Below, piece after piece: positions 46,346 to 63,164 of a DNA stretch of 64,000 nucleotides. The DNA lies in assembly GCF_014190775.1 (NCBI RefSeq), contig NZ_JACHVP010000002.1, forward strand, positions 620,001 through 684,000, in the 5' to 3' direction. Below the pieces are notes generated by a model that was given only the letters and a program-made list of their open reading frames with translations, was not told the origin of the DNA and did no database searches. Position numbers and translations under genes: made by a program. The DNA comes from Leifsonia aquatica. Lineage in GTDB: Bacteria > Actinomycetota > Actinomycetes > Actinomycetales > Microbacteriaceae. Positions within the stretch are counted from its first letter, which is position 1. The number at the start of each line of letters is the position of its first letter.

Positions 46346-47562
46346 GCCGCTTCGACCTCCTGCCCGATCCGTCGGACATCGGCGGCGACCACGACCGGTA
46401 CGCGGAGTGGATCGCCGTGGCGCGCGAGGTCGCCGGCCTCCTCGCCGTCGACGCGCTCGAACGCGACCGCGGCAACCGCCTCCCGACCGCCGAGATCGAG
46501 CTGCTGCGCGAGCGTGGACTGCTCACCATCGGCATCCCGGTGGAGTTCGGCGGGGCGGGCGTGCCGTGGACGATCACGGCCCAGATCGTCCGGCTGATCG
46601 CCCGCGCCGACTCCTCGATCGCCCACCTCCTCGGCTACCACTACGTCTGGCTGCGGTTCATCCAGTCGTTCGACACCGACCAGTCGCGCCGCGCGCTCGT
46701 GGACAGCGCCGCCGGCCGCTGGCTCTGGGCGAGCCCCGGCAACAACCGCGCGTCCGGCTATCCGCCGATCGTTCCGGACGGCGACGGGTTCGTCATCACC
46801 GGCGACAGCGGATTCGCCTCCGGCGGGCCCGTCGCCGACCGCCTCTTCGCGATCGCCCTGCGCGACGGCGACCGGATGACCGTCGTCGAACTCGACCCGG
46901 CGGACGCCGGCATCACCTTCAGCGGCGACTGGGACGTGCTCGGTCAGCGCCTCTCGGCCAGCCAGTCGATCACCCTCGCCGACGTGCGCGTCGACGAGTC
47001 GCGCATCCTGCGCCGCTTCGGGCCGATCCGCGAGCAGGAGGCGCGGCAGTCGGTGCAGGTGCTGCACTTCCAGCTCACCTTCGGCATCCTCCACCTCGCC
47101 ATCGCCGAGGGAGCGCTGGAGGCCGCCACGGCCTACACGCGCGAGCACACCCGCCCGGCGTTGCACTCGACGGTGGAACGCGGCCGCGACGAGCCGTACA
47201 TCCTCGCCGGCTACGGCACCCTCGTCGCGAAGGTCCAGGCCGTGTCCGCGCTGGTCGAGCGCGCGATCCACGCGCTCGACTGGCTCTACGCCCTCGGCGA
47301 CGAGGTCACGGCCGAGCAGCGGGCGGCCGTCGCGGAGATCATCGCGAGCGCCAAGATCGTGTCGACCGACACGGCCCTGGAGGTGACGAGCGCGATCTTC
47401 GAGTACACCGGCGCCCGCTCGACCGCCGCCGCGTTCGGGCTGGACCGTTTCTGGCGCAACGTCCGCACGATCTCGCTGCACGATCCCGTCGCCTACAAGC
47501 GCGACGAGGTGGGCCGGTACGTGCTCAACGGAGAGGCTCCGACACCGTCGGGCGTGCGCTGA
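46342..47562 (+). CDS. Acyl-CoA-dehydrogenase-fold flavin monooxygenase, DszC/SfnB-like (2)
   Basis: A 406-residue paralogue of the preceding gene, with the same closing pattern RFWRNVRTISLHDPVAYKRDEVGRYVLNG and a YHYVWLRFI segment near 97-105. It starts inside the upstream stop codon (ATGA). Two tandem members suggest two successive oxidations, a heteromeric enzyme, or two substrates. It is the last gene of the operon, and a strong inverted repeat follows downstream. Confidence 0.84.
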   Translation: MSRFDLLPDPSDIGGDHDRYAEWIAVAREVAGLLAVDALERDRGNRLPTAEIELLRERGLLTIGIPVEFGGAGVPWTITAQIVRLIARADSSIAHLLGYHYVWLRFIQSFDTDQSRRALVDSAAGRWLWASPGNNRASGYPPIVPDGDGFVITGDSGFASGGPVADRLFAIALRDGDRMTVVELDPADAGITFSGDWDVLGQRLSASQSITLADVRVDESRILRRFGPIREQEARQSVQVLHFQLTFGILHLAIAEGALEAATAYTREHTRPALHSTVERGRDEPYILAGYGTLVAKVQAVSALVERAIHALDWLYALGDEVTAEQRAAVAEIIASAKIVSTDTALEVTSAIFEYTGARSTAAAFGLDRFWRNVRTISLHDPVAYKRDEVGRYVLNGEAPTPSGVR

Positions 47563-47567
47563 CGCGC

Positions 47568-47586
47568 TGATAGGCGGAACCTATCA
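47568..47586. promoter_or_regulatory. LysR-type site TGATAGG-N5-CCTATCA
   Basis: A perfect 7-bp inverted repeat with a 5-base spacer has the T-N11-A geometry of LysR sites. Its right half, CCTATCAAT, recurs at 49880-49888 and 52358-52366. It lies 20 bases ahead of the -35 element of the first promoter of the MFS gene. Confidence 0.6.
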
Positions 47587-47605
47587 ATGCGGGCGCGGAT
47601 GCTGC

Positions 47606-47635
47606 TTGATCCGCTTTCCGCCGCCGACCTAGCGT
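47606..47635 (+). promoter_or_regulatory. Upstream promoter P1 of the MFS gene
   Basis: TTGATC (47606-47611) and TAGCGT (47630-47635) are separated by 18 bases. The -10 element is identical to that of the kinase promoter and of the second MFS promoter. Confidence 0.5.
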
Positions 47636-47643
47636 TGTCGTAT

Positions 47644-47681
47644 CCCGGGTCGCTGCCTGTCATCGGCGTCGGCGACCCGGG
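47644..47681. terminator. Inverted repeat, terminator or attenuator
   Basis: CCCGGGTCGC and GCGACCCGGG form a perfect 10-bp stem with an 18-base loop. It could end the sulfur operon, but it also lies in the leader of any transcript from the promoter at 47606-47635. No T tract follows. Confidence 0.5.
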
Positions 47682-47720
47682 ATCGATAGCCTCCATCGAT
47701 CAATGACCCTCGACTTCTTA

Positions 47721-47749
47721 TTGAGGGCGGAAGAATCGAAACCTAGCGT
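47721..47749 (+). promoter_or_regulatory. Leaderless promoter P2 of the MFS gene
   Basis: TTGAGG (47721-47726), a 17-base spacer and TAGCGT (47744-47749) lie 6 bases before the GTG start, which puts transcription start on the start codon. A degenerate CGATAGCCTCCATCGATCAA element upstream (near 47683) resembles the LysR site. Confidence 0.6.
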
Positions 47750-47755
47750 GGACGG

Positions 47756-49006
47756 GTGACCGTCCTCTCCCCTTCCCGCCGTCGCGTCCGTCCGCCGAGC
47801 GTCCTCTCCCTCATGGGCCTCCGCTACATCGCGCTCGCCCTGATCGCCCGGCTGCCGTTCGCCATGATGGTGGTCGGCGCGCTCACGATGATGGTCGAGC
47901 TCGGCCGGTCGGTCGCCGAGGCCGGCATCGTCTCGGCCGTGGCGGGGATCGGCACCGCGCTGGGCGCGCCCCTCCTCGGGCGCTCGATCGAGCGGTTCGG
48001 CCAGCGCCCCGTGCTGCTCGTGATCGGGCCGGTCTTCGGCCTCCTGCTCGTCGGTTTGACGGCGCTGGTCTGGTTCGGCGCCGCCACCGGGGTGCTCGTC
48101 GGTGTCGCGGCGCTCGCCGGCGTCGTCAGCCCGCAGGTCGCACCGCTCTCGCGCTCGCGGGTCGCGGCGGCGGTGCTCGACACCGAGTCGGGTCCGCGGC
48201 TCGATGCGGCGATGGGCTACGAGTCGATGGCCGACGAGGGCGCGTTCGTCGTCGGGCCGGTGCTCGTCGGCGCCCTCTCCCTGGCCCTGGGCCCGTGCGC
48301 GCCGCTGCTGGTCGCCGCCGGGCTGACCTTCACCGCGGTCGTCGCCTTCGCCCTCCATCCGACGGCCGTCGGGCTGGCCGGGGCGACCAGCGGAGCGGGC
48401 GGGCGCCGTCACCGCCTCTGGTCCGGGAGGTTCGTCATCCTGGTGGCGGGCATGTCGTGCGTGGGCGCGATCTTCGGCGCCACCCTCACCGCGCTCACGC
48501 GGGAGCTGGAGGTCGCCGGCATCCCCGGCTGGACCGGGCTCGTCTACGGTCTGATGAGCGTCGGGTCGATCCTCTCGGCGGCCTCGCTCGCCCACATCCC
48601 GCAGACGCTCCTCCCGCGTCGCGCACGCTGGATCGTCGCCGCGAGCGTCGCCGTCGCGGGGGCGGTCGTCCTCGCACTCGGCGCCGCACTGGTGTGGACG
48701 TGCATCGGGCTCTTCCTCCTCGGCTGCGGGATGGGCGCCGCCCTCGTGACCGTGTTCGCCCTGACCGCCGAGGACGTGCCCGCGTCGCGTCGCACGACCG
48801 CGTTCGCCGTGCTCAGCAGTGCGCTGATCGTCAGCCAGGCGGTCGTCACGGCCGGAGCGGGTCAGCTGGTCTCGTCGGCCGGCGCCGCGCTCGGCTTCCT
48901 CGTCGCCGTGGCCGCCGGCGTCGTGCTCCTGGCGCTGGCGGTCACCCACCGGTTCGTGCCCGCTCGGAGCGTCAGCGAAGAAGCTGCGAGGCCGTCGAAC
49001 GGATGA
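47756..49006 (+). CDS. MFS transporter
   Basis: A 416-residue transporter with about 12 hydrophobic segments and a motif-A-like loop GRSIERFGQRPVLLV at about 73-87. The first 15 residues are basic. The GTG start has no ribosome binding site but lies 6 bases after TAGCGT, so the message is probably leaderless. Its 3' end overlaps the converging lysR gene by 35 bases. Shared CCTATCAAT elements link it to the pseudouridine genes, so it may carry a nucleoside or related compound. Its substrate is otherwise unknown. Confidence 0.8.
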   Translation: MTVLSPSRRRVRPPSVLSLMGLRYIALALIARLPFAMMVVGALTMMVELGRSVAEAGIVSAVAGIGTALGAPLLGRSIERFGQRPVLLVIGPVFGLLLVGLTALVWFGAATGVLVGVAALAGVVSPQVAPLSRSRVAAAVLDTESGPRLDAAMGYESMADEGAFVVGPVLVGALSLALGPCAPLLVAAGLTFTAVVAFALHPTAVGLAGATSGAGGRRHRLWSGRFVILVAGMSCVGAIFGATLTALTRELEVAGIPGWTGLVYGLMSVGSILSAASLAHIPQTLLPRRARWIVAASVAVAGAVVLALGAALVWTCIGLFLLGCGMGAALVTVFALTAEDVPASRRTTAFAVLSSALIVSQAVVTAGAGQLVSSAGAALGFLVAVAAGVVLLALAVTHRFVPARSVSEEAARPSNG

Positions 49007-49871
49007 GCTCCACCGTCTCGTGCAGGCTCTCGCGCGGGTCGCGGTCCCGGTAGATCATCTCGAGCGGCAGCGCGCCCGGCGGATCCAGCGGCACGGCGAC
49101 GACCTCCGACGGCAGTGACGGCACCGCCGACCGAGGCACGAGGCTGAACGCGCGTCCCTCCCCGAGCAGGTAGCTCCGCGACCCGACGATGCGGGGAGGC
49201 GAGACCAGGATCATCGGGCTCAGCCCCCGGTCGTGGCACAGCGCGAGGAGGGCGTCGTAGTACGCAGGCGCCTGCTCGCGGGACCACAGGAGCAGCGGCA
49301 GGTCGCCCAGGTCCGCCGGGTCGATCGAGGCCGAGCCGGCGAGGGGATGCGCTGCCGAGACGACCGCGAGGAACTCCTCCTGCAGCAGCACCTCGGTGGC
49401 GAAGCGCGGCGGCGGGGTCAGGAACCGGCCGATGCCGATGTCCGCGGTCTGCCGCAGGACCTCGGCGACGACGGCCCCGCTGTCGGCCGCGATCTCCTCG
49501 ATGCTCGTGTCGGGCGTCTCCTGCTCCGCGCGCCGGATGACGGCCGGGAGCAGGGTGTTGATCACGCTCGGCGACGCCACGACGCGCACGCGCTGGAGGT
49601 GCTCGGTCTGGAAGAGGCGGGCGCGATCGGTGAAGCGGTCGGCGGAGTCGAGCAGTGCGCGCGCCTCCTCGACCAGGGCCTCGCCGGCCGGCGTCAGGCT
49701 GGCCGTGCGCGTGGATCGTGTGAACAGTCTCAGGCCGAGCGCGACCTCCAAGCGCTTCAACTCCTGGCTCGCCGTAGCTTGGGCGATGTGCAACCGATCC
49801 GCCGCGCGCCCGAAGTGGAGCTCGGTGGCGAGGGCGAGGAAGATCTCGACCTGGCGGAGAGTGACAGCCAT
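48972..49871 (-). CDS. LysR family regulator of the pseudouridine region
   Basis: A 299-residue LysR-type protein with the helix-turn-helix at about 18-40 (HFGRAADRLHIAQATASQELKRLE) and an effector domain from about 92. It is divergent from the kinase gene, with 96 bases between starts. CCTATCAAT sites at 47578, 49880 and 52358 near three nearby promoters are its likely targets. The effector might be pseudouridine or its phosphate, which is inference from the neighbours. Confidence 0.88.
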   Translation of the reverse strand: MAVTLRQVEIFLALATELHFGRAADRLHIAQATASQELKRLEVALGLRLFTRSTRTASLTPAGEALVEEARALLDSADRFTDRARLFQTEHLQRVRVVASPSVINTLLPAVIRRAEQETPDTSIEEIAADSGAVVAEVLRQTADIGIGRFLTPPPRFATEVLLQEEFLAVVSAAHPLAGSASIDPADLGDLPLLLWSREQAPAYYDALLALCHDRGLSPMILVSPPRIVGSRSYLLGEGRAFSLVPRSAVPSLPSEVVAVPLDPPGALPLEMIYRDRDPRESLHETVELIRSTASQLLR

Positions 49872-49879
49872 AGCGCGAG

Positions 49880-49934
49880 CCTATCAATTGGTCGTCTTTT
49901 CCGCCTTGGTCGAATCACCAAGCGTCATTAGCGT
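49880..49934 (+). promoter_or_regulatory. LysR element and promoter of the kinase operon
   Basis: CCTATCAAT (49880-49888) is followed by TTGGTC (49906-49911), a 17-base spacer and TAGCGT (49929-49934). The order and the -10 sequence repeat those at the MFS promoter. Confidence 0.6.
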
Positions 49935-49967
49935 TGACCTCGCTCGAACGAAAGAACAGAGGCAAGG

Positions 49968-50900
49968 ATGCTGGCTGTAGTAGGTGACCTGGTGGAAGAC
50001 ATCGTCGTGTGGCCGAGTGGCGCACTGCGACGAGGGACGGACAACCAGGCCGAGATCTATCGCACCCGGGGCGGGTCGGCGGCGAACGTCGCCGCGTTCG
50101 CCGCGGGGCTCCACCCGACCCGCTTCATCGGCTGCGTCGGCGACGACGCGACCGGCGAGAACCTGGGCCGCGTGCTGTCGGAGTCCGGGGTCGACGTGCG
50201 CGTGCAGCGCCGCGGGACGACCGGCACGATTGTCATCCTGATCGAACCGGACGGGGAGCGCACGATGCTCCCGAACCGCGGGGCGGCGACGAAGCTCGAG
50301 CGCGTCGCGGACGCGTGGCTGGACGGCGTGGAACTGCTGCACATCCCCGCCTACTCGTTCGACGGGGACCCGGTGCGGCAGAGTGTCGAGGCGATGATCG
50401 ACGTCGTGCGGGGGCGCGGCGGGCTCATCTCGGTCGACGCCTCCTCGACCCAGGTCATCGAGACGTTCGGCGTGCAGCGGTTCCGCGACTACCTCGAGCG
50501 CATCGCCCCGGACTTCCTCATCGCGAACGGCGACGAGGCCGAGCTCCTGGGCTTCGGCAGCGCGGACGCCACCGCGGAGAACCTGCGCCGCAACCCGTCG
50601 ACGACCTTCGTCCTCAAGGCGGGCGCGCAGCCCACCCGGGTGCTCTCCGCCCATGCCGAGCCGCTGACGGTCGACGTGCCGCCGGTCACGGTGATCCGTG
50701 ACTCCACGGGAGCGGGCGACGCGTTCGCCGCCGGCTTCCTCACCACCTACCTCACCAGTCGCGACCTCGTCGCCTCCTGCCGCGGCGGCCACCGCAGCGC
50801 GCAGGCCGTCCTCGGCTCGCCGGGCGCCACCACCCCCATCCCCGTCGTCGGCGCGTCCACCCCCGGTGCGCCGGCGCCCAGTGCAAGGACGAAGCAATGA
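49968..50900 (+). CDS. psuK: PfkB family kinase, probable pseudouridine kinase
   Basis: A 310-residue ribokinase-type sugar kinase. The N-terminal GDLVEDIVV and RGGSAANVAAFAAGLHP are the first PfkB signature region. DSTGAGDAFAAGF at about 244-256 is the second, with the catalytic Asp. It would phosphorylate pseudouridine (or a related nucleoside) at the 5' position. The adjacent MFS transporter and PsuG make pseudouridine the best guess, since PsuG needs the 5'-phosphate. GAGG lies upstream of the ATG. The last 30 residues are a Pro/Thr-rich tail. Confidence 0.75.
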   Translation: MLAVVGDLVEDIVVWPSGALRRGTDNQAEIYRTRGGSAANVAAFAAGLHPTRFIGCVGDDATGENLGRVLSESGVDVRVQRRGTTGTIVILIEPDGERTMLPNRGAATKLERVADAWLDGVELLHIPAYSFDGDPVRQSVEAMIDVVRGRGGLISVDASSTQVIETFGVQRFRDYLERIAPDFLIANGDEAELLGFGSADATAENLRRNPSTTFVLKAGAQPTRVLSAHAEPLTVDVPPVTVIRDSTGAGDAFAAGFLTTYLTSRDLVASCRGGHRSAQAVLGSPGATTPIPVVGASTPGAPAPSARTKQ

Positions 50901-52348
50901 CGCAACTCCATCCCGCGGACACCTCCGCACCGACCGGGTCCGCCTCCATCAGGCGGATGGTCTTCGCCCTGCTGGTGGCGTGCGCCGCCTTCCAGCTCAA
51001 CGCCAGCATGCTGGCGCCGGCCCTCGTCACGATGGCCCACGAACTCGACGTCAGCGAGGCCAGTGCGGCGCTCGCGCAGACGGTCTTCTTCACCGCGACG
51101 GCGGTGTTCGGGATCTTCCTCCCCCGCTGGAGCGACATCGTCGGCCGCAAGCGCATCATGCTCCTGATGCTGGCGGCGATGACCGTCGGCAGCGTCGTGG
51201 CCGCCCTCGCGCCGACCCTGCCGATCCTGCTCGTGGCGCGGGCGCTGCAGGGCGCCTCGGGCCCGATCGTCGCCGTCAGCCTGCTCATCCTGCGGGCCGA
51301 GGTGAAGGACGCGCGCCGGTACGGCTACCTCATGGGGCTCGTCGCCGCCGTCAACGGTGGAATCGCCGGGGTGGATGCCATCGCCGGCGGGTTCATCACC
51401 AGCCTCTGGGGATTCCGGCCGATCTTCTGGGTCATCACCGTGCTCGGCGTCCTCGCGCTCGTCTTCACCCGCTCGTGGACTCCCGAGTCCCGTCCGTCCG
51501 CCCGCGCGCGGATGGACTGGTGGGGCGTGATCACGCTGGTCGGCGCGATCCTGTCGTTCCAGCTCGCGATCAACGAGCTGCAGCAGCTGGGCGACGCGAA
51601 CTGGTGGCTGATCGGCGGACTCGCCGTCCTCGGTCTGGTGTTCGGCGCGGCTTTCCTCACTGTCGAGCGCATCGTCCCCGTTCCGCTCGCATCGATCTCG
51701 CTCCTCAAGCAGCGCTCGGTGTGGGCGCTGCTGCTCACGACATCGCTCACCATCGCCGGGGTGGTCCCCGTCGTGAACGCGGTGGCCCTCTCGCTCGCGC
51801 AGAACCCGACGAATGGGTTCGGGCTGGCTGCGGACACGACCTCGCTGATCCTGCTCACCCCGTACGCGCTGCTGGGCTGGATCGTCGGTCCGTTCGCCGG
51901 GCGGCTCGCGCCGGTGGTGGGCTACCGCACGATCCTGCGGGTCGGACTGGCCGGGTCGGTGCTCGGCATCGTCGGCCTGGGCTTCCTCGGCACGCAGAGC
52001 CTCCCCTTCCTCATCGGCGCGGTGCTCTTCCTCGGCGTGGTCTACGCCGGGATGGCGAACATCATGCTCAACGGCCTCGGCGTCGTGCTGAGCCCGCCCG
52101 AGAACCCCGGGTTCCTGCCGGGCCTGAACTCGGCGGCCTTCGGGTTCGGCGCCGGTATCGGCTTCACGGTGATGCCCGCACTCCAGATGCTCGGCAGCGG
52201 TCCCACCGGAGTGCCGACCCACCTCGGCTACAGCGTCGCGATGTTCGCCGCCGCCGGGATCACCGCCCTGGCGCTCGCGGTCTCGCTGCTGCTGCCGAAG
52301 CCCCGCGGGGTCGAGCTGAACACGACCTCGGTCTCCGCCGTCCACTAA
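50897..52348 (+). CDS. MFS transporter, DHA2-like, in the pseudouridine operon
   Basis: A 483-residue transporter with about 14 hydrophobic segments; motif A reads PRWSDIVGRKRIMLL and helix 4 has RALQGASGPIV. It resembles DHA2 exporters, but its ATG overlaps the kinase stop by 4 bases and psuG follows, so uptake of a nucleoside is as likely as export. The stop is followed by a promoter-like region with its own CCTATCAAT element. Confidence 0.82.
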   Translation: MTQLHPADTSAPTGSASIRRMVFALLVACAAFQLNASMLAPALVTMAHELDVSEASAALAQTVFFTATAVFGIFLPRWSDIVGRKRIMLLMLAAMTVGSVVAALAPTLPILLVARALQGASGPIVAVSLLILRAEVKDARRYGYLMGLVAAVNGGIAGVDAIAGGFITSLWGFRPIFWVITVLGVLALVFTRSWTPESRPSARARMDWWGVITLVGAILSFQLAINELQQLGDANWWLIGGLAVLGLVFGAAFLTVERIVPVPLASISLLKQRSVWALLLTTSLTIAGVVPVVNAVALSLAQNPTNGFGLAADTTSLILLTPYALLGWIVGPFAGRLAPVVGYRTILRVGLAGSVLGIVGLGFLGTQSLPFLIGAVLFLGVVYAGMANIMLNGLGVVLSPPENPGFLPGLNSAAFGFGAGIGFTVMPALQMLGSGPTGVPTHLGYSVAMFAAAGITALALAVSLLLPKPRGVELNTTSVSAVH

Positions 52349-52357
52349 TTGTTAAAA

Positions 52358-52403
52358 CCTATCAATCGTCGAACATTTGCTTGTTGATCCGGCCTAATAG
52401 CGC
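52358..52403 (+). promoter_or_regulatory. LysR element and promoter of psuG
   Basis: CCTATCAAT (52358-52366), TTTGCT (52376-52381), a 16-base spacer and TAGCGC (52398-52403) lie ahead of psuG. TTGATCCG between them also occurs at the MFS promoter at 47606. Confidence 0.55.
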
Positions 52404-52446
52404 ACCCGAGACTGGCATCACCACCGCAAGAAAGCAGGAAGACACC

Positions 52447-53355
52447 ATGAGCTCCATCCGCATCTCCGACGAGGTCCGCGAGGCCGTCGCCGCCGGCCGG
52501 CCCGTCCTCGCCCTCGAGTCGACCATCTTCACCCACGGGCTGCCCCGCCCCCGTAACCTGCAGGTCGCGACCGAGTCCGAGGCCCAGCTGCGCGCCTCCG
52601 GCGTCACCCCGGCGACGATCGGCGTCGTCGCCGGCGAGCTCGTCGTCGGGCTGTCGTCCGCCGAGATCGAGCTGCTCTCCAACGACGACTCCGTCGTCAA
52701 GGCCTCGATCCGCGACCTCCCGATCGCCGCCGCCAAGCAGCTCAACGCCGGCACGACCGTCGCCGCGACCGCCTACGCGGCGCACGCCGCCGGCATCAAG
52801 GTGTTCTCGACCGGCGGTCTCGGCGGGGTGCACCAGGGCGCCGCCCAGACCTTCGACGAGTCGGCGGACCTCGGCGCCCTCGCGACCCTGCCCATCGTCG
52901 TCGTGAGCGCGGGCGTGAAGTCGATCCTCGACATCGGCCTCACCCTCGAGCGGCTCGAGACGCTGAACGTGCCGGTCGTCGGCTGGAAGACCACCGACTA
53001 CCCCGGCTTCTACATCACCGACTCCGGCTTCGACATCGAGTACTCGGTGGACAGCACGGACGAGATCGCGAGCATCGCCGCCAGCCGCGACGAGCTGGGG
53101 CTCGCCTCCACGGTGCTCGTCGCCAACCCGATCCCCGCCGAGAAGCAGCTCTCGCCCGAGAAGCTCGAGCAGGTGCTCGTCTCCGCGCACGCCGCGGCGG
53201 CCGACGCGAACATCGTGGGTCACGACACCACGCCGTTCCTGCTCGACTACATCCAGCGCGCCACCGGCGGCGAGAGCCTCGAGGTCAACATCGACGTGTA
53301 CCGCAACAACGTCGCGCTGGGTGCGGAGATCGCCCGCTCGATCAGCGCCCGTTAG
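52447..53355 (+). CDS. psuG: Pseudouridine-5'-phosphate glycosidase
   Basis: A 302-residue enzyme of the PsuG/IndA family. The opening LALESTIFTHGLPRPRN matches the family's ESTIxxHGxPxPxN signature. GVVAGELVVGLSSAEIELL and KASIRDLPIAAAK follow, with the Lys that forms the ribosyl intermediate expected in the GVKSILDIGLTLERLE region. The C-terminal LVANPIPAEKQL is also typical. It splits pseudouridine 5'-phosphate into uracil and ribose 5-phosphate, salvaging modified bases from RNA turnover. It is normal in length and has its own promoter and a strong terminator. Confidence 0.93.
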   Translation: MSSIRISDEVREAVAAGRPVLALESTIFTHGLPRPRNLQVATESEAQLRASGVTPATIGVVAGELVVGLSSAEIELLSNDDSVVKASIRDLPIAAAKQLNAGTTVAATAYAAHAAGIKVFSTGGLGGVHQGAAQTFDESADLGALATLPIVVVSAGVKSILDIGLTLERLETLNVPVVGWKTTDYPGFYITDSGFDIEYSVDSTDEIASIAASRDELGLASTVLVANPIPAEKQLSPEKLEQVLVSAHAAAADANIVGHDTTPFLLDYIQRATGGESLEVNIDVYRNNVALGAEIARSISAR

Positions 53356-53374
53356 GCTACGGAATCGGCCAGGC

Positions 53375-53410
53375 GCGACGGCCTCGCCCCGACCGGGGCG
53401 GGGCCGTCGC
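53375..53410 (+). terminator. Terminator after psuG
   Basis: A stem of about 16 bp (GCGACGGCCTCGCCCC with its near-perfect complement, one G-U type pair) closes a 4-base loop between the psuG stop and the trpF start. No T tract is present. Confidence 0.7.
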
Positions 53411-53429
53411 TCATGAACGAGGAGTCCCG

Positions 53430-54035
53430 ATGTACGTGAAGATCTGCGGTCTCTCCACGATCGAGTCGGCCAGGGTCGCGCTCGACGCCGGTGCGGACGC
53501 CGTCGGCGTGGTCATGAGCAGACGCAGCCGTCGCACGGTCTCCGCCGACGTCGCGCGCGAGATCGCCGGCTTCGTCGGGGGCGCCGCCGACGTCGTGCTC
53601 GTCGTGGACGAGCTCCCCGCGGTGGAGGCGGCTTCCGTCGCTGGTGGGATCGGCGCCGACGTGGTCCAGCTGCACGGCACTGGGTACCGACCGGACGACG
53701 TCGCAGCGGCCGCCGGTGCCGGTCTTCGCGTCTGGCGCGCGACCTCCGTCACCTCGGCCGACGAGGTCGACGTCGGATCCTGGGGCGAGGAAGCCCTCCT
53801 CCTGGACTCACCCGACCCCGGCTCCGGCCGCCGCTGGGACTTCGCCGTGCTCGAGGACCGACCCCTGCGCGGCCGGTGGATGCTCGCGGGCGGACTCGAC
53901 CCCGAGAACGTCGCGGAGGCCGTCGCCTCCGCGCGCCCGTGGGGAGTCGACGTCTCGAGCGGCGTCGAATCCGCGCCCGGGGTCAAGGACCTCGACCGCA
54001 TCCGCGCCTTCGTCGCGGCGGCGAAGACGGGCTGA
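53430..54035 (+). CDS. trpF: Phosphoribosylanthranilate isomerase
   Basis: A 201-residue TIM-barrel enzyme of tryptophan biosynthesis. VKICGL (3-8) carries the catalytic Cys7; QLHG is at about 80-83; LAGGLDPENV near 152-161 and GVDVSSGVES with GVKD near 172-186 form the phosphate-binding loops. It converts N-phosphoribosylanthranilate to the ribulose form (CdRP). It stands alone, without other trp genes. GAGGAG lies before the ATG. The last 103 bases of the gene are repeated, with changes, at 54580-54680. Confidence 0.92.
   Translation: MYVKICGLSTIESARVALDAGADAVGVVMSRRSRRTVSADVAREIAGFVGGAADVVLVVDELPAVEAASVAGGIGADVVQLHGTGYRPDDVAAAAGAGLRVWRATSVTSADEVDVGSWGEEALLLDSPDPGSGRRWDFAVLEDRPLRGRWMLAGGLDPENVAEAVASARPWGVDVSSGVESAPGVKDLDRIRAFVAAAKTG
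53924..54026 (+). repeat. Direct repeat copy 1, 3' end of trpF
   Basis: This intact copy belongs to the functional trpF gene. It matches 54580-54680 closely over its whole length, with a handful of substitutions and a 2-base difference. Confidence 0.85.
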
Positions 54036-54078
54036 ATGTTACATTCGACGTCGGGCTGGAATCGAGCGTGGAGGAAAC

Positions 54079-54378
54079 ATGGCGAAGCCGCTGCAGGAAC
54101 TGACCGCCGCCGATCTGGCGTCGGTGCTGTCCGTGATAGCGCATCGTCAAGCCAGCGATGGCTCGCGCGAGTCGTGGGACGTCTCGCTGTTCACTTCGAG
54201 GTCGGATTCACCGATTGCCACAGACGTCGTCGGTCTACCCAGCCCCGTCTCTGAGGACCTCGTCACCGAGCATGTCGTCTTCGTGCTGGGCAGAGAAGGT
54301 GTGAAGCTTGAGCTTCCGTGGCGTACCCGTCGCGAGGGCTACTTCATGTCAGGAGTATCCGCGCCCGAGGCTGCCTGA
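54079..54378 (+). CDS. Hypothetical protein inside the duplicated patch
   Basis: A 99-residue protein, MAKPLQELTAADLASVLSVI to an Ala-rich end, with no family I recognise. It seems a small alpha/beta protein without membrane segments or cysteines. GAGGAA lies just before the ATG. Its base composition is visibly less GC-rich than that of the neighbours, and it lies inside the segment flanked by the two trpF 3'-end repeats, both of which suggest arrival by transfer. A function cannot be suggested. Confidence 0.6.
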   Translation: MAKPLQELTAADLASVLSVIAHRQASDGSRESWDVSLFTSRSDSPIATDVVGLPSPVSEDLVTEHVVFVLGREGVKLELPWRTRREGYFMSGVSAPEAA

Positions 54379-54384
54379 GGCCCA

Positions 54385-54579
54385 TCAGTCTCCTGAGTAC
54401 GCCCCGCCCAGGATGTCCCCGATCAGCGTCGGCCCGGTCGGCTCCCAGCCGAGCAGTTCGCGCGTGCGTGCGCTGGTGCCGGTCATGGTGGCGCCGAAGA
54501 AGTGGCCGACGACGCCGAAGTGCGCGGTCGCGTCCGCCGGGTCGATGGAGGTCACGGGCAGGCCGAGAGCCTCGCCGAG
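54385..54579 (-). pseudogene. C-terminal fragment of an NAD(P)-dependent oxidoreductase/epimerase
   Basis: The minus-strand frame ends in a 64-codon stretch closed by a TGA stop: LGEALGLPVTSIDPADA, then HFGVVGHFFG, TSARTRELLGWEPTGPTLI and GDILGGAYSGD. This is the typical C terminus of SDR-type NAD-dependent epimerase/dehydratases (the RELLGWxPTGPxLIxDL motif). The upstream part, with the Rossmann GxxGxxG domain, is missing: the frame is cut exactly where the second trpF repeat begins at 54580. It is a truncated, non-functional remnant left by the rearrangement. Confidence 0.75.
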
Positions 54580-54680
54580 CGCCTCCGCGCGCCCTTGGGG
54601 AGTCGACGTTTCCAGCGGCGTCGAATCCGCTCGGGGTCAAGGACCTCGACCGCATCCGCGCGTTCGTCGCGGCGGCGAAG
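54580..54680 (+). repeat. Direct repeat copy 2, degraded trpF 3' end
   Basis: This copy carries the trpF end from GCCTCCGCGCGCCC to GCGGCGGCGAAG, but lacks 2 bases (GCTCGGGG against GCGCCCGGGG), which breaks the reading frame. There is no start or upstream trpF sequence. The 60 bases after it hold nothing recognisable. Confidence 0.85.
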
Positions 54681-54740
54681 GCGGCCCGAACCAGACCAGG
54701 GTCGTCTCTCGCGTGGGCGCCCCGCAGCACTCGCTCGTGC

Positions 54741-55382
54741 CTAGGCCTGCGAGCCGAATGCGGCGAGGAAGGTCGCGACTCCGGCGCGCACCGAGCCGTC
54801 GAGTTCGGAGCTCGTGATGCGGCGGGTGCCGTATCCGCTGGCGGGGAGGGCGCCGTCCGTGACGAGCGCCATGAAGTGAGAAGCTGCGCGCTCCGGGTCG
54901 GGGAGTCGCAGGAGGCCGCGCGCACTGTACTGCGCGAGCTTTCCGGCGAGCTGATCGAGATTCGACGCGCGGGACCGCTCCGACGTCTCGTCGAGTTCCG
55001 GGAAGCGCGAGCGCTCGCCTGCCTGGAGGCGGAGGATGGCCGACCCCTCCTCGTCGGTGACGCATTCCACCAGCGCGTGCCCGAGGGCGACGAGCGTGCG
55101 CTCGAGGTCGTCCGGTCGCGGATCGGCCGCCTCGATCGCCCGCTGGACCCGGTCTCGGGATCGCAGCGCACCGGTGGTCCACGCGCGGACGAAAAGCGAG
55201 CGCTTGTCACCGAAACGGTTGTACACCGTGGGCTTCGCAACTCCCGCGGCGCGGGCGATGTCGTCCACGCTGGCATCGGCGTAGCCGGATCTGCCGAACT
55301 CCGCGAGCGCCGCCGTCAGGATGGCGGCCTCGCGGTCCGCCACGGCGCCACCTGTGCGTCGCGAGGGAGGCGGGGTTGTCAT
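54741..55382 (-). CDS. TetR family transcriptional regulator
   Basis: A 213-residue regulator with a helix-turn-helix at about 33-62 (ASVDDIARAAGVAKPTVYNRFGDKRSLF) and a C-terminal domain of the TetR_C type common in multidrug-efflux repressors. It is divergent from an MFS gene. TAGCAT 6 bases before the ATG suggests a leaderless transcript; the GAGG beside the ATG is too close to be a ribosome binding site. A palindrome over the start of the MFS gene is its probable operator. Confidence 0.9.
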   Translation of the reverse strand: MTTPPPSRRTGGAVADREAAILTAALAEFGRSGYADASVDDIARAAGVAKPTVYNRFGDKRSLFVRAWTTGALRSRDRVQRAIEAADPRPDDLERTLVALGHALVECVTDEEGSAILRLQAGERSRFPELDETSERSRASNLDQLAGKLAQYSARGLLRLPDPERAASHFMALVTDGALPASGYGTRRITSSELDGSVRAGVATFLAAFGSQA

Positions 55383-55402
55383 GCCTCGATGCTACTCGAG
55401 GG

Positions 55403-55447
55403 TTGCGAAGAGTGAACCGATGTGTATATTGAACTCGTGAGTTTAAT
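55403..55447 (+). promoter_or_regulatory. Leaderless MFS promoter with overlapping operator
   Basis: TTGCGA (55403-55408), a 16-base spacer and TATATT (55425-55430) lie 6 bases before GTG at 55437. The palindrome ATTGAACTCG-TGAGTTTAAT (55428-55447, 8 of 10 pairs) covers the -10 end and the start codon, so a bound repressor would block initiation directly. Confidence 0.65.
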
Positions 55448-56804
55448 AATCTTGTCGCGACGATACAGCCTCGGTCGGGTGGCGGCACTCCTCATCCCGG
55501 GAGGGATCCTCGCCCTGCTGAGTGTGACCGTCGCCGGGGTGATGATCCCCTCGATGCGGGCCGAGTTCCCCGCCGCGGGGGAAGCCGTCCCGTGGGTCAC
55601 CACCGTCTATCTCCTGGTCAGCGCGACGGCGATCCCGGTCGGCGGCTGGGCCGGGACGAGGTTCGGCGTCCGGCGAACATGGCTCATCGCGCTCGCCGTG
55701 TTCGCGGCCGGTTCCCTAGCGAGCGCCGTCGCCCCCGACGTGTCCCTCCTCATCGCGGCGCGTGCCCTGCAGGCTGCCGGCGGCGGAGTGCTCGAGCCCT
55801 TGATGCTCACCGCGCTGGCGCGTGCCGCCGGGCCGGCACGGATGGGGCGGGTGATGGGGGGTGTCGCGGCGGCGATGTCGATCGGCCCCCTGGCCGGTCT
55901 TGCCCTGGCGGCCGCGGTCGTCACCCTCGCCGGCTGGCGGACGGTGTTCCTCGTCATCGCCGCGGTGGCGGCCGTGCTTCTCGCGTGCGCGGCGCTGTGG
56001 CTGCCGACGGGAGCGGATACTGAGGGCGACGGGTCGCGACGGCTCGATGGCCTTGGTCTGCTTCTGCTGATCGCAGGAGTCGTCGGCATCCTCGTCGCGC
56101 TCGGCCAGTCCGTGCTCTGGGCGGGCATCGCCGGTGTCGCGGGTCTCGGCGGGTCGATCGCGTGGATGCGACTCCGCGGGGACGAAGCCTTGATCCCGCC
56201 GCGGACGTTCCTGCAGCGGGGATTCGGTCCGGCCGTCGTGATCATGGTCGGCCTGGGTGCGGCGATCTTCCCACTCTTCTTCGCCGTCCCGCAGTACCTC
56301 GGTGCTGTAGTCGGCGTGCCGGTCGTCGCCGCGGGCTCCCTCCTGATCCCGTACGGGATCGGGACGGTGATCGCGATGCCGGCCGTCGGGGCCCTCAGCG
56401 ACCGCATCGCGCCTCGCAGGCTGGTCACCGTCGGGGCGGGGGTCGCGGCCCTGGGGTTCGTCGGACTCGTCGTCGCTCCATCGCTGCCCGTCGCGCCGGT
56501 GGCTCGAGGAGCCCTTCTCGTCGGGAGCCTGCTCCTGGTGGGGCTCGGTCTCGGCGCCGTCGGGAGCCCGACCGTCGCCACGCTGTACCGCGTCCCCCCA
56601 CCCGACCTGCTCGGCACGGGATCGACGGTGCTGTTCGTCGGAAATCAGATCGGGGGCGCTGCAGGTGTGGCCGTGGTCGCCGCCCTGATCGGTTCCGACG
56701 GTTGGACCGTTACTGACGGCGCCGTCCCGCTTCTGCTCCCGCTGGCCGCTGTGGCGCTCATCGCCGTGCTGGCGCAGCGGCTCCCCGCGCCGACGCCGGC
56801 GTGA
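55437..56804 (+). CDS. MFS drug exporter
   Basis: A 455-residue exporter with about 14 hydrophobic segments, motif A as GGWAGTRFGVRRTWL and helix 4 as ARALQAAGGGVLEPL. I chose the GTG at 55437 rather than the one at 55422 because a good -10 box ends 6 bases before it, which indicates a leaderless message. The divergent TetR gene is its likely repressor. The 3' end converges on the NIPSNAP-like gene with 26 bases between. Confidence 0.85.
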   Translation: MSLIILSRRYSLGRVAALLIPGGILALLSVTVAGVMIPSMRAEFPAAGEAVPWVTTVYLLVSATAIPVGGWAGTRFGVRRTWLIALAVFAAGSLASAVAPDVSLLIAARALQAAGGGVLEPLMLTALARAAGPARMGRVMGGVAAAMSIGPLAGLALAAAVVTLAGWRTVFLVIAAVAAVLLACAALWLPTGADTEGDGSRRLDGLGLLLLIAGVVGILVALGQSVLWAGIAGVAGLGGSIAWMRLRGDEALIPPRTFLQRGFGPAVVIMVGLGAAIFPLFFAVPQYLGAVVGVPVVAAGSLLIPYGIGTVIAMPAVGALSDRIAPRRLVTVGAGVAALGFVGLVVAPSLPVAPVARGALLVGSLLLVGLGLGAVGSPTVATLYRVPPPDLLGTGSTVLFVGNQIGGAAGVAVVAALIGSDGWTVTDGAVPLLLPLAAVALIAVLAQRLPAPTPA

Positions 56805-56830
56805 CACCGGCGGTCCGATCGGGATGCGTC

Positions 56831-57136
56831 CTACTCGAAGACCGGCGTCAGGAAGCGGCGCTCGTAGCGGCGGATGCAGCCGGTCTCGCGCGCGAACTGG
56901 AAGGCCTCCTGGCATTCGGGGTCCGTCGCCGATGCCTCCCGGTACCGCTCGTACTCCGCCAGCGACGGGAAGGTGAACAGCGCGAACGCCTCGTCGCTGT
57001 CGCCTTCGCTGGGCATGAAGTACCCGTGGTGGTCGCCGCCGAGCCTGTTGACGAGGCGGATCCAGCGCTGCCCGTAGTCGGTGAACTCCGCCAGCTTGTC
57101 GGCATCGATCTCGTAACGCAGGTGGACGGTGATCAC
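56831..57136 (-). CDS. NIPSNAP-like small protein
   Basis: A 101-residue protein with the ferredoxin-like pattern of the NIPSNAP family: MITVHLRYEIDADKLAEFTDYGQRW at the start (core hydrophobic strand then helix), GYFMPSEGDSDEAFALFTFPSLAEYERYR in the middle, and a C-terminal RRYERRFLTPVFE. The function of such bacterial proteins is unclear. It lies 55 bases behind the alkylsulfatase gene on the same strand, so it may belong to that operon. Confidence 0.75.
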   Translation of the reverse strand: MITVHLRYEIDADKLAEFTDYGQRWIRLVNRLGGDHHGYFMPSEGDSDEAFALFTFPSLAEYERYREASATDPECQEAFQFARETGCIRRYERRFLTPVFE

Positions 57137-57191
57137 GGGTGCTCGCTCTCGTCGGCAGGCAGGGACGACCTCATCCTGACAGAGCGCGGGA

Positions 57192-59063
57192 TCACGGCGT
57201 CACGATGTCGAACCCCGTGTCTCCCTGGTCGAGCACACCGAGCAGCGCCTGGAGGGCGCCCTGGTCGCCGGCGAGCTCGATCCCGGGGCCGGCCAGATCC
57301 CCTCCGGCGAGCTGGATGAGTCGCGGCTTCGTGAGCGTCAGGTGCACGTCGGCATCGGCGTCCGCGGGCTGCCGCGTGTAGATGAGCACCCCGTTGTGGA
57401 GTTCGAGCCGGTAGTTCGCGTCCAGGTCGGTGAGGGTGACGTCGATGGCGAGCGTCAGATCCCACGCCTTCGGCCCGTCGACGGAGAGGGAGAGGGAGTC
57501 GAAGAGCTGCTCGGGCGTCAGCTGGGCGACGATCGCCGGCGAGGCCGCGACCGTCGGTGTGCCGAAGTTGCCGTCGCGCAGCTCGGTCGCGCCGGAGAGG
57601 AAGAAGTTGCGCCAGGTGCCGTTCTCCGCTCCGTACGCGAGCTGTTCGAGCGTGTCGGCGTAGAGCTCGCGTGCGGCCGCGTGGCCGGCATCGGCGAAGA
57701 CCGCATGGTCGAGCAGGGTCGCCGCCCAGCGGAAGTCCGCGGCGTCGAACGCGGTCTGCGCGAGCTCGACGACGCGGTCGACCCCGCCGAGCGCCTCCAC
57801 GTACCGGGCGGCGAGCTCCGTCGGCGGGTGCGGCCAGAGCCGGGCCGGGTTGCCGTCGAACCAGCCCATGTACCGCTGGTAGACCGCCTTCACGTTGTGG
57901 CTCACCGACCCGTAGTAGCCGTGCGCGTTCCACGCCTTCTCGAGCGCCGGGGGCAACTGGAACATCTCGGCGATCTCCGGCCCGGTGAACCCCTTGTTCA
58001 GGAGGCGGAGGGTCTGGTCGTGCAGGTAGGCGTACAGGTCGCGCTGGGTCGCCAGGAACTCGACGATGCGGTCCGACCCCCAGGTCGGCCAGTGATGCGA
58101 GGCGAACACGACATCGCTGCGGTCGCCGAAGCTGCCGATCGCCTCGGTGAGGTAGATCGACCAGATGTGCGGGTCGCGCACCAGCGCACCGCGCAGGGTG
58201 AGGAGGTTGTGGAGGGTGTGCGTCGCGTTCTCCGCCATGCACAGAGCCCGGAACCGGGGGAAGTAGAAGTGCATCTCCGCCGGGGCCTCCGTTCCCGGTG
58301 CCAGCTGGAACTCGATCTCGACGCCGTCCACGGTGAGGGTCTCGCCCGTCTCGGTGATGGACACCGTGGGCGGGATGATCCCGACCTCGCCGATCGAGGT
58401 CGTCTGGCCGAGGCCCGCACCGACCTGGCCCTGCGGCCCGCGGGCGAGCGCCGCCCCGTACATGTAGCCGGCCCGGCGGCCCATCGCGACGCCCGCGTAC
58501 ACGTTCTCCTCGACGGCGTGCCCGAGGAACCCGTCGGGGGCGATGATCTGTACGCGCCCCGCATCCACGTCCTCCACGCTGGTCACCCCGAAGACCCCGC
58601 CGAAATGGTCGACGTGGCTGTGGGTGTAGATCACCGCGACGACCGGGCGCTCGCCGCGGTGCTCGCGGTAGAGCGCCAGCGACGCAGCAGCCGTCTCCGT
58701 GGAGATCAGCGGGTCGATAACGATGACGCCGGTGTCGCCCTCGACGAACGTGATGTTGGACAGGTCGAATCCGCGCACCTGGTAGATGCCCTCGACCACT
58801 TCGTAGAGCCCGTGCTTGGCCACGAGTCTGGACTGCCGCCACAGGCTCGGGTTCACCGAATCGGGTGCGGCGCCGGTGAGGAAGTCGTAGCTGCTGAAGT
58901 CCCAGACGGTCCGCCCGTCGGCCCTCGTGATCGTCGGTGCGTCCACCGTCCCGAGGAACCCGCGATCGGCGTCCTCGAAGTCGGTCTCGTCGTCGAACGG
59001 CAGAGACTGCAGCAGCGCCGCGTTCGCCTTCCTGATCGCGTCGGTCGGCGGCTTCTGCTCCAT
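57192..59063 (-). CDS. SdsA-type linear alkylsulfatase
   Basis: A 623-residue metallo-beta-lactamase-fold sulfatase. The zinc site THSHVDHFGG has His148, His150, Asp152 and His153; MAENATHTLHN near 252-262 provides the glutamate and histidine typical of SdsA1/BDS1. A helical dimerisation region follows (about 380-500), and a C-terminal SCP2-like domain fills about 510-620. It hydrolyses primary alkyl sulfates such as dodecyl sulfate to alcohol and sulfate. I see no signal peptide, so it acts in the cytoplasm. It is preceded by an MFS gene and followed by a NIPSNAP-like gene. Confidence 0.9.
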   Translation of the reverse strand: MEQKPPTDAIRKANAALLQSLPFDDETDFEDADRGFLGTVDAPTITRADGRTVWDFSSYDFLTGAAPDSVNPSLWRQSRLVAKHGLYEVVEGIYQVRGFDLSNITFVEGDTGVIVIDPLISTETAAASLALYREHRGERPVVAVIYTHSHVDHFGGVFGVTSVEDVDAGRVQIIAPDGFLGHAVEENVYAGVAMGRRAGYMYGAALARGPQGQVGAGLGQTTSIGEVGIIPPTVSITETGETLTVDGVEIEFQLAPGTEAPAEMHFYFPRFRALCMAENATHTLHNLLTLRGALVRDPHIWSIYLTEAIGSFGDRSDVVFASHHWPTWGSDRIVEFLATQRDLYAYLHDQTLRLLNKGFTGPEIAEMFQLPPALEKAWNAHGYYGSVSHNVKAVYQRYMGWFDGNPARLWPHPPTELAARYVEALGGVDRVVELAQTAFDAADFRWAATLLDHAVFADAGHAAARELYADTLEQLAYGAENGTWRNFFLSGATELRDGNFGTPTVAASPAIVAQLTPEQLFDSLSLSVDGPKAWDLTLAIDVTLTDLDANYRLELHNGVLIYTRQPADADADVHLTLTKPRLIQLAGGDLAGPGIELAGDQGALQALLGVLDQGDTGFDIVTP

Positions 59064-59128
59064 GGCGTCCCCATCCACTCGTCTGATGGGACCGACTCTG
59101 TACCTCGTGTCGTCGCCGCGGCAAGGGG

Positions 59129-60391
59129 TCACGTGAGCCGGCGGCGCCGTTCCACCGGGGACAGCCGCGTCAGCGCCCGCACCCCCAGCGCCGATCCGAG
59201 GAAGACGGCGGCGAGGGCGATCCAGCCCGGCATCCCGTGGTCGAGGGCGGTCGCGGTGACGACCAGCGGCGCCAGCATGCTCCCGAGCGAGAAGCCCATG
59301 GCGAAGACCCCTTGATACGCGCCCGGGCGCGCTCGGTCGGCGAGCTCGAAACTGAGACTCCAGGTGCCTGCCGACGACAGGATCTCTGCGAACGTGTGGA
59401 GGAGCACGGCGGCGAGGAGGAGCGCCACGGCGAGCGGTGCGACGACCCCGGCCGACCCGCCGTACGCGACGCACGCAGCCGCCATCAGCGCACCGGCCAG
59501 CCCGGTCATGCTTCCGGCGCGGCGGAGGTCCTCGGATCCGCGCGACAGCGGGATCTGCAGCAGGATGACTCCCGCCGTGTTGACGATGAGAGCGATCGAG
59601 ACGATGACGTGGGGCGCTCGCGTGTCCGAGACCACCCAGATCGGGAGGCCGACCTCGGCCACGCCGAACTGCATCGCGAAGACGCCCGCGAGCAGTGTGA
59701 GCGCGAGGTAGCGCGGGTCGCGGAACGGCGAGCGGCCCAGCGGAGCGGTCGCGCGTGGGCCGGCGCCGGCGGGGGAGGCCGCGTGGCCGTCGAGGGAGCG
59801 CGGGAGGGCGAGCAGCGTCACCGCTCCGGCCAGCGTGATGCATCCCGCGACGAGGAAGGCGACGCGGTAGGCCGCCGGCGTGCCGATGAGCACGGGGACG
59901 CCGGCTGCGGCCGATCCGATAGCGATCCCCAGGTTGGCGGCGGTGCGCAGGATCGCCCGCGTGCCCGCCCGGGAGGCGCCCTCGAAGGCGCGCGCCACGA
60001 TCGCGGAGCGGACCGCGTTGGAGGCACGGTTGGCTCCGATGGTGAGGGAGGCGACCGCGGCCACGACGGCGACCGCCGGGGACCACGTGAACGCGATGAG
60101 GGCGCATCCCTCGACCGCGACGAGCGCGACGAGCAGCAGGCGGGCCGAGACGCGGTCCGCCAGGTGGCCCGCGACCACCGACGTGAGCACGCCGACCCCG
60201 CTGGCAATGGTGAGGACGACGGCGACGACGGTCGTCGACAGCCCCGCGGACAGGGTCAGGTAGAGGATCGACAGGGTGAGGAACACGCCGCGCCCGAGGG
60301 CGTTCACGAGCGCGGCGGACACGAGGATCCGCAGCACAGGGTCGGCGAGAGCGGAGGGGACGGGCGGGCGGAGGCGCGGGAGGCTGGACAC
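59129..60391 (-). CDS. MFS transporter upstream of the alkylsulfatase
   Basis: A 420-residue transporter with about 12 hydrophobic segments and motif A as GHLADRVSARLLL. The GTG at 60391 has no ribosome binding site; an AATAAC box lies 6-7 bases upstream, as at other leaderless starts here. It is 65 bases ahead of the alkylsulfatase on the same strand and could import the sulfate ester or export the alcohol. It is divergent from a winged-helix regulator gene, which may control it. Confidence 0.82.
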   Translation of the reverse strand: MSSLPRLRPPVPSALADPVLRILVSAALVNALGRGVFLTLSILYLTLSAGLSTTVVAVVLTIASGVGVLTSVVAGHLADRVSARLLLVALVAVEGCALIAFTWSPAVAVVAAVASLTIGANRASNAVRSAIVARAFEGASRAGTRAILRTAANLGIAIGSAAAGVPVLIGTPAAYRVAFLVAGCITLAGAVTLLALPRSLDGHAASPAGAGPRATAPLGRSPFRDPRYLALTLLAGVFAMQFGVAEVGLPIWVVSDTRAPHVIVSIALIVNTAGVILLQIPLSRGSEDLRRAGSMTGLAGALMAAACVAYGGSAGVVAPLAVALLLAAVLLHTFAEILSSAGTWSLSFELADRARPGAYQGVFAMGFSLGSMLAPLVVTATALDHGMPGWIALAAVFLGSALGVRALTRLSPVERRRRLT

Positions 60392-60446
60392 CCGTCCGTT
60401 ATTCCAGCGACGGCGCTCGCAGCGAACTGATGTAGCGTATTGCTTC

Positions 60447-61400
60447 ATGCTGACGTACGAGCTCGACGAGGACGACGTCGGCGCGGTCCGCCTCGCACTC
60501 TCGCCGCTCTGCGAGCTGGGGCTCTCGATCCGGGCGCTCACGCGGCCCGAGCTGTACCCCCTCCAGCTGCCGTGGGTCCGGCTCACAGAAGAGGCCCGGC
60601 ACGAGCTCGACCAGGATGCCCTGCTCGCGCTCGTGAACGACGGCCTCTCCACCCCCGACTTCCTCAACCCGCGGCCGACCTCCCCGCTCACGCGCATCGA
60701 CGACGAGCTCGACGCCCTGCGCCACCTCGACGCCGACCGCTTCCGGCAGCAGCTCGTCGAGGTGCACGGCGAGCTGCCCGCGCCGTTCCGCGGCGACCCG
60801 CGCCAGGCGATCGATCGCATGGTCGACGCGCTCGCCGAGTACTGGAGCGTCGCGTTCGCGCCGCACTGGCCGCGCATGCGCCGCATCCTCGAGGCGGACA
60901 TCGTCTACCGCGGCCGCGAGGTCGCCCGGGCCGGCCTCACCGGCATGCTGAACGGCATCTCCCCGAACCTCCGCTTCGCCGACCGGGTGCTGTCCGTCAC
61001 GCTGCACACCCGCCTCCACCGGCACGAGGTGATCGGCGGCCACGGCCTGACGCTGGTCCCGACGATGTTCTCCCGCCGGGTCTCGGCCCCGATCGCGGCA
61101 GGCGAGCCCCCGATGATCCTCTACGCGGCCCGCGGCCAGGGCGTGATGTGGGAGGTCGGGGAGGCCGTCGACGATCGCGCCCTCGTCGCCCTGATCGGCC
61201 GCACCCGCACGACCCTGCTGCACGCGATCGCCGAGCCCGCGTCGTCGACCGAGCTCGCCGCGCGCTTCGGCGTCACCACCACCGCGGTCAACCAGCACCT
61301 CCGCGCGCTGAGGGATGCACGGCTCCTGACGTCGGCGCGGTACGGGCGGAGCGTGCTCTACTTCCGCACCGACCTGGGGAACGCCCTGCTCGGCGGCTGA
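60447..61400 (+). CDS. Winged-helix (ArsR-like) regulator, DUF5937 type
   Basis: A 317-residue protein with a long N-terminal domain of the DUF5937 kind (about 1-230) and a C-terminal ArsR/SmtB-like winged helix at about 250-315 (SSTELAARFGVTTTAVNQHLRALRDARLLTSARYGRSVLYF). I see no metal-binding cysteines. The ATG at 60447 is preceded by TAGCGT 8 bases upstream, and no ribosome binding site is visible. It is divergent from the MFS-alkylsulfatase operon, with 55 bases between starts, so it is the best candidate to regulate that operon. Confidence 0.85.
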   Translation: MLTYELDEDDVGAVRLALSPLCELGLSIRALTRPELYPLQLPWVRLTEEARHELDQDALLALVNDGLSTPDFLNPRPTSPLTRIDDELDALRHLDADRFRQQLVEVHGELPAPFRGDPRQAIDRMVDALAEYWSVAFAPHWPRMRRILEADIVYRGREVARAGLTGMLNGISPNLRFADRVLSVTLHTRLHRHEVIGGHGLTLVPTMFSRRVSAPIAAGEPPMILYAARGQGVMWEVGEAVDDRALVALIGRTRTTLLHAIAEPASSTELAARFGVTTTAVNQHLRALRDARLLTSARYGRSVLYFRTDLGNALLGG

Positions 61401-61427
61401 CGGCGCGGCGCGGCGGCCCTGCAGTGC

Positions 61428-61922
61428 TCAACCGCCGGGAGGCACCTCGGGCTCCGGGCTGCCGTCGACCGTCCCGATCGTCCAGGACCGGTGGTCCTGA
61501 TCCCAGTACATCCACCAGCTGCACGAGCCCGCGCGCGGGACCGTGTACGCCGGCTGGCCGTCCGCGACGATGAGCACCGCCTGTGGACCGTCCCCCTCGC
61601 TGAGGTTCGGGTGGATGCGCGAATCGCGCTGGCCCGCGCACAGGCCCATCACTTCGTCGACCTCGACTGCCGGGGAACCGGGTACCAGTCTGTCGACGGC
61701 ATCCCGATCGCCCGCCTCCAACGCCCGCAACAGGCGGGGCGCGAGTTGCGCGGCGCTGTCCCGCGGCGGCACCGAGCCGCTCGCGACCTGATCGGAGAAG
61801 TATCCGGAGGCCATCAGATAGGCGAGGTACCCGGCACCGGCCAGCACCAGCACGGCGAGACCGACCGTGATGGCGATCGGGAGGCGGCGACCGGGGGCGG
61901 TCCGGGATACCCGCGCCGTCAT
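61428..61922 (-). CDS. Membrane-anchored protein of unknown function
   Basis: A 164-residue protein with one N-terminal membrane segment at about 15-41 and an extracellular remainder. The outer part has an Ala/Leu helix (SAAQLAPRLLRALEAGDRDAV) resembling lumazine-binding or NTF2-like modules, then single cysteines near 95 and 134 that could form a disulfide. Its ATG overlaps the stop of the AraC gene by 4 bases, so the two are co-translated. I do not recognise a family. Confidence 0.7.
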   Translation of the reverse strand: MTARVSRTAPGRRLPIAITVGLAVLVLAGAGYLAYLMASGYFSDQVASGSVPPRDSAAQLAPRLLRALEAGDRDAVDRLVPGSPAVEVDEVMGLCAGQRDSRIHPNLSEGDGPQAVLIVADGQPAYTVPRAGSCSWWMYWDQDHRSWTIGTVDGSPEPEVPPGG

Positions 61923-62902: not shown

Positions 62903-63043
62903 TCCGCGATTGTATGCGTCGGATCTCGACGCCGGACGACCCGTCCGCGCACATCGGACAGGACTCCGCGCCGACCGGATATCGATGCCGGAGCGCCGTG
63001 CATAACGTGAAATCGTCACCGCCTCCCCGGACGGCGACGATCT

Positions 63044-63080
63044 CCGGTGATCCTCCCCTTCGGGTGGGGAGGGTCACCGG
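63044..63080. repeat. Strong hairpin in the leader of a two-gene unit
   Basis: CCGGTGATCCTCCCC and GGGGAGGGTCACCGG form a 15-bp stem (one G-U type pair) with a 7-base loop. A weaker repeat, ATCGTCACCGCC to GGCGACGAT (about 63012-63043), precedes it. They stand 84 bases before the next gene, with no coding sequence ending upstream on that strand. Confidence 0.55.
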
Positions 63081-63164
63081 GGCCCTCCCACCCGTGCACC
63101 CGCAGGCACCGAACCACCCCGAGGCGGCAGCACATGCACCACCGAACCGCACGCGAGACGTCCC

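Follow-up and report, generated by a model that had tools for sequence, protein, structure and literature searches.

In a 64,000-nucleotide stretch of the Leifsonia aquatica genome (the window; G000:C2:620001–684000 of a 4.41-Mb draft assembly in nine contigs), the 3′ end of trpF is present twice, and the second, decayed end most likely marks the join left by an ordinary DNA duplication and deletion rather than the footprint of a mobile element. Positions 53924–54036 recur at 54580–54690 with 103 of 113 alignment columns identical, and the alignment contains a single 2-base gap, a deletion in the second copy. Because the deletion has cost this copy its reading frame and the stop codon is lost as well, the second trpF end is dead and decayed. 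Self-BLAST of the window returned three self-matches at E 1e-8, among which the trpF-end repeat (160 bits) is the only one with at least 80% identity; a chance repeat was rejected on these grounds. The first-pass annotation of this DNA had reported a degraded copy of the trpF end from 54580, and this is borne out. The 103- and 101-base core that it described stands, but not the extent, as the repeat runs approximately 10 bases further, and the intervening spacer, given as 553 bases, comes to 543 bases when the full-length repeat is counted. The features of the region are as follows.

53430–54035, plus strand: intact trpF (phosphoribosylanthranilate isomerase, 201 aa), covering positions 1–192 of the 193 of PF00697
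53924–54036, plus strand: repeat copy 1, the 3′ end of intact trpF, from the alignment
54079–54378, plus strand: 99-aa open reading frame (ORF), no Pfam match at E 0.01
54385–54589, minus strand: truncated 3′ end of an NAD-dependent epimerase-type oxidoreductase gene, from the G012 match (last 10 bases common with the repeat)
54580–54589, no strand: seam, from the alignment
54580–54690, plus strand: repeat copy 2, the decayed trpF 3′ end (2-base deletion, stop lost), from the alignment
54691–54740, no strand: probable remnant of the original trpF–tetR spacer, directly after the copy; the G012 BLAST alignment starts at 54752
54741–55382, minus strand: TetR-family regulator (PF00440, PF14246)
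55422–56804, plus strand: MFS transporter (PF07690)
56813–56832, no strand: junction at which 7.07 kb of G012 (L023:7973–15041) are absent, from the G012 alignment

The proximal trpF is left intact, as had been claimed. The draft state of the genome raises the question of an assembly artefact, which we regard as highly improbable. Since 10 columns distinguish the two copies and their flanks are not the same, they cannot be one sequence misplaced; moreover, the seam lies inside a 692-kb contig.

The evidence for a local origin comes from comparison with the nearest member of the genus, G012, evidently Leifsonia sp. 71-9 (a MAG; NZ_MKVJ01000021.1), which is by far the best match. The blocks common to both genomes are trpF alone (95.4% identity over 53427–54035, the gene plus 3 preceding bases), tetR together with the MFS gene (93.5%, 54752–56812), and the sequence from 56833 onward. 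G012 contains a single trpF, and its 3′ end is not repeated. Directly to the right of its MFS gene lies an intact oxidoreductase gene on the minus strand (MFS end, L023:7964; oxidoreductase stop, 7986), approximately 3 kb from trpF. In the window, the oxidoreductase tail instead abuts the trpF copy, on the left side of tetR. The succession of oxidoreductase tail, trpF end, and tetR thus has the order and orientation that a tandem-duplication seam predicts from the gene order observed in G012. A duplication with later deletion, which the first-pass annotation had offered only as an alternative, fits best, since the intact oxidoreductase gene is local in G012 and the order at the seam is as predicted.

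At the seam, the 10 bases at 54580–54589 equal trpF, and 8 of them, the last 6 consecutively, also equal the G012 oxidoreductase gene, which corresponds to a microhomology of 6 to 10 bases (6 consecutive exact matches to the G012 gene, up to 10 possible). Shared bases are expected at the join of a microhomology-mediated duplication, and a shared run of at least 6 bases occurred at 0.47% of 200,000 random junctions between the trpF and oxidoreductase genes. The earlier description of the oxidoreductase as cut exactly at the repeat needs a small correction: the piece before the repeat (54385–54579, minus strand) does consist of the last 64 codons and the stop, but the match to the G012 gene continues into the opening 10 bases of the repeat, as far as 54589. 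According to the available text of PMC11111574, the join of tandem duplications in almost all evolved E. coli strains fell at the engineered 9-bp microhomology borders, and microhomology is not necessary for tandem duplication. The arrangement found here resembles the short-homology illegitimate tandem duplications described in that text in the few GC-rich bases shared at the seam, in the joining of one gene's end to an upstream point of another, and in that no recombinase is seen. It differs in that the seam alone is left, and decayed, the duplicated body being gone.

Based on these data, we favour with moderate confidence a local illegitimate rearrangement, of which the structure would be the seam; the model comprises a microhomology-mediated tandem duplication, later deletions, and the gain of a small gene. 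The course of events that we infer would start from an ancestor with the order trpF, tetR, MFS, and oxidoreductase, in which trpF and tetR were convergent and approximately 50 bases apart. Slippage, a template switch, or unequal exchange would have connected the interior of the oxidoreductase gene with trpF 112 bases short of its end, so that the left-hand trpF stayed intact and only a headless end of the right-hand one was left. Subsequent deletions would have removed the first tetR–MFS copy and, from the second copy, the intact oxidoreductase gene together with approximately 6 kb beside it, and the small 99-aa gene would have entered beside trpF. The model requires at least three steps and one gene gain, and duplication leaves the 99-aa gene unexplained. 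No second copy of tetR or of the MFS gene was found by self-BLAST of the window, nor did an intermediate carrying the complete duplication turn up; because the second copy of the unit is absent from the window, the structure is filed, by inference, as the remnant of a tandem duplication.

To the right of the MFS gene, the window continues with a 20-base stretch and then a NIPSNAP gene, and the approximately 6 kb that lie past the oxidoreductase gene in G012 seem to be missing from the L. aquatica genome. A comparison of the 7.1-kb G012 stretch with this genome, in which 40 of 1,032 first-look candidates were scored, yielded, besides a 70% match to an oxidoreductase paralog and the 205-base tail, just short matches, none longer than 157 bases. 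From position 600001 to the end of contig 2, the alignment with G012 consists mostly of collinear blocks of 0.2–11.5 kb, with indels reaching 17 kb. Within so plastic a region, the trpF seam is a single small feature and belongs to ordinary genome plasticity. Two larger segments of the window, 19583–36556 (approximately 17 kb) and 38417–53426 (approximately 15 kb), are absent from the aligned G012 stretch and have sharp borders, the right one ending 3 bases short of the trpF start codon.

The origin of the oxidoreductase tail was considered further. It shares 183 of 205 bases (89%) with the 3′ end of the intact gene in G012 (L023:7986–8882), and deducing a foreign donor from this value is not needed, as 27% of 734 overlapping 205-base windows, drawn only from aligned G012 blocks of more than 85% identity and more than 600 bases, are equally low or lower. 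Among matches of at least 150 bases in the 28 genus genomes, with 11 first-look candidates scored per genome, only G012 exceeds 75% identity, and a local source is therefore the simplest. An origin from the intact paralog in the same genome (G000:C2:107065) was rejected, its identity being 74% compared to 89% for the G012 gene. The other oxidoreductase matches in the genus, at 18 loci (L002, L006–L022), were set aside as paralogs with 51–60% protein identity over the aligned pieces, the alignment at L018 covering only 78 residues; flanks of up to approximately 1.5 kb beside these 18 loci contained no MFS or TetR protein at E 1e-8.

The differences between the tail and the G012 gene comprise 13 synonymous and 9 non-synonymous changes, and 13 of 22 exceeds the 27% synonymous fraction expected under neutrality (P = 0.0016). 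Because the differences are mostly synonymous, the tail was probably cut well after its split from the G012 gene, and this pattern suggests that it was probably part of a working gene for much of the time since then. A three-way comparison of the dead copy, the intact trpF end, and G012 over 111 ungapped columns gave 5, 3, and 2 unique differences, respectively, a distribution which, in this unrooted comparison, is compatible with an event dating from roughly the time at which the two species separated. The dead copy and G012 have the same base at 3 sites where the intact trpF differs; hence, either the duplication is old, or one of the trpF ends comes from another strain.

The latter possibility leads to a different model, in which foreign DNA carrying trpF, the 99-aa gene, and the oxidoreductase gene entered by homologous recombination within trpF, while at its other end the microhomology served for an illegitimate join to the resident trpF end. 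In homology-facilitated illegitimate recombination, a resident gene end could become duplicated as DNA is imported, and a single event of this kind would yield the duplicated trpF end, the foreign gene, the cut oxidoreductase, and the seam. The three shared sites of the dead copy and the predominance of synonymous changes in the oxidoreductase tail slightly favour a later cut or an import, and for this reason we hold an import to be a possible, if clearly less probable, origin. However, no donor sequence was found here: a DNA search of the 28 genus genomes revealed none with the order trpF, 99-aa gene, and oxidoreductase. In addition, the intact trpF end differs from G012 at 4 of 112 bases and the remainder of the gene at 24 of 494; the end is thus not the more diverged part, which also speaks against an import.

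The 99-aa gene bears on the same question. Its GC content of 63.3%, measured one base off frame, compares with 71.2% for the window, in agreement with the first-pass description of a less GC-rich gene between the copies, and by its composition the ORF looks acquired. Apart from its own genome, the only DNA match among the 28 genus genomes is in G004, where 70 of 94 amino acids are identical and the match begins 26 bases upstream of the start codon. The two versions differ by 28 synonymous and 38 non-synonymous changes in 282 bases, 37 of the 66 differences falling at codon position 3. The G004 homolog sits in a 14-kb stretch that otherwise has no match to window positions 50000–64000. The low GC content, the single other carrier among the 28 genus genomes, and its otherwise unmatched surroundings count in favour of an import. 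Against an import, a draw of 398 genomes from the family contained a match in 6, including the own genome, the other five at 30–33% identity; G004, which is not among the 6, was apparently absent from this draw. In G004 (L024:6172–7112), the ORF next to the homolog looks by eye like that of a secreted protein, and the two may form a pair.

The first-pass annotation had interpreted the repeat as the scar of an integration event, in which a mobile element inserted at the trpF 3′ end, supplied a replacement end, and was then almost entirely lost. The geometry of an intact proximal gene and a decayed distal end does resemble that of prophage e14 in icd, and a direct repeat of the gene's 3′ end at both borders, a trait of the e14/icd type, is present. 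The available text of PMC6379469 reports that e14 leaves a 163-bp duplicate of icd in E. coli, and the intact gene with a displaced 3′-end duplicate, 113 columns long in the present case, is the feature common to both. The differences are that no element and no recombinase are found here and that what adjoins the duplicate is, in G012, a gene of the same neighborhood. Profile searches of the own genome showed no tyrosine (PF00589) or serine (PF00239) recombinase, either in the insert or within 600 kb on the contig. PF00589 matched 6 times in the genome (5 above the cut-off), with the two matches on this contig at 33 and 47 kb, approximately 627 kb or more away, and both matches to PF00239 were on contig 9. 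Because an intact ortholog lies approximately 3 kb from trpF in G012, the oxidoreductase piece need not be element cargo. An exact 28-base pattern of the trpF end, the one pattern used, occurred in no viral contig, and, at the settings used, searches of plasmids, phages, and viral contigs gave no relative of the small gene; 11 viral stretches fit its peptide pattern, none of them confirmed as a relative. With no PF00589 or PF00239 recombinase near and a neighboring piece that is local in G012, little stands behind the integration reading, and a site-specific element, by analogy with e14, is unlikely and less probable than a local duplication.

The trpF–tetR interval in a close relative, to which the first-pass annotation had pointed as informative, contains a single trpF end in G012, but it is filled by an Abi_2 gene (PF07751; abortive-infection type; L023:4761–5747), and the 3′ end of tetR is altered there. 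Because of this different insert, G012 does not represent a plain empty site. Different single-gene inserts thus follow directly after the trpF stop in the two genomes, the 99-aa gene here and the phage-defence-type Abi_2 gene in Leifsonia sp. 71-9. Such a pattern might mean that the trpF end is an acceptor hot spot and that an undescribed minimal integrating unit, using a recombinase in trans, has the repeat as its border, which we consider a rather remote prospect; the borders of the Abi_2 insert in G012 carry no copy of the trpF end, just short weak repeat families.

For a local duplication followed by deletions, which remains the preferred explanation, the region would show at base resolution that gene turnover can produce a decayed gene end with the look of an attachment-site repeat. 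When 3′-end repeats are used to call integration scars, it should be checked, before an element is proposed, whether a relative has the neighboring piece as a local gene. The general interest of the case is limited.

The distribution of trpF also weighs against integration. It is an accessory gene in the genus, present in 3 of 28 genomes by protein search and by PF00697; since it was not found in the other 25, it is not a conserved integration target. The available text of PMC13055916 describes trpF as regularly missing in Actinomycetota and names as carriers Corynebacterium, Streptomyces, and some Streptosporangiaceae; in its main text, as available, neither "Leifsonia" nor "Microbacteriaceae" is mentioned. 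In the present genome, trpF co-occurs with a HisA/PriA-type gene (PF00977; L152:1468–2346) containing an RGWTQDGGDLW stretch that resembles PriA. We take this gene to be PriA-like from the motif and the adjoining his genes, as judged by eye. Six plasmid records match parts of 53430–55382, none covering 80% of it, and two carry an annotated trpF of their own. Annotated relatives of trpF occur on plasmids of Streptomyces sp. WAC00288 and Tsukamurella tyrosinosolvens, with 68–77% DNA identity over parts, and the gene can therefore travel in Actinomycetota.
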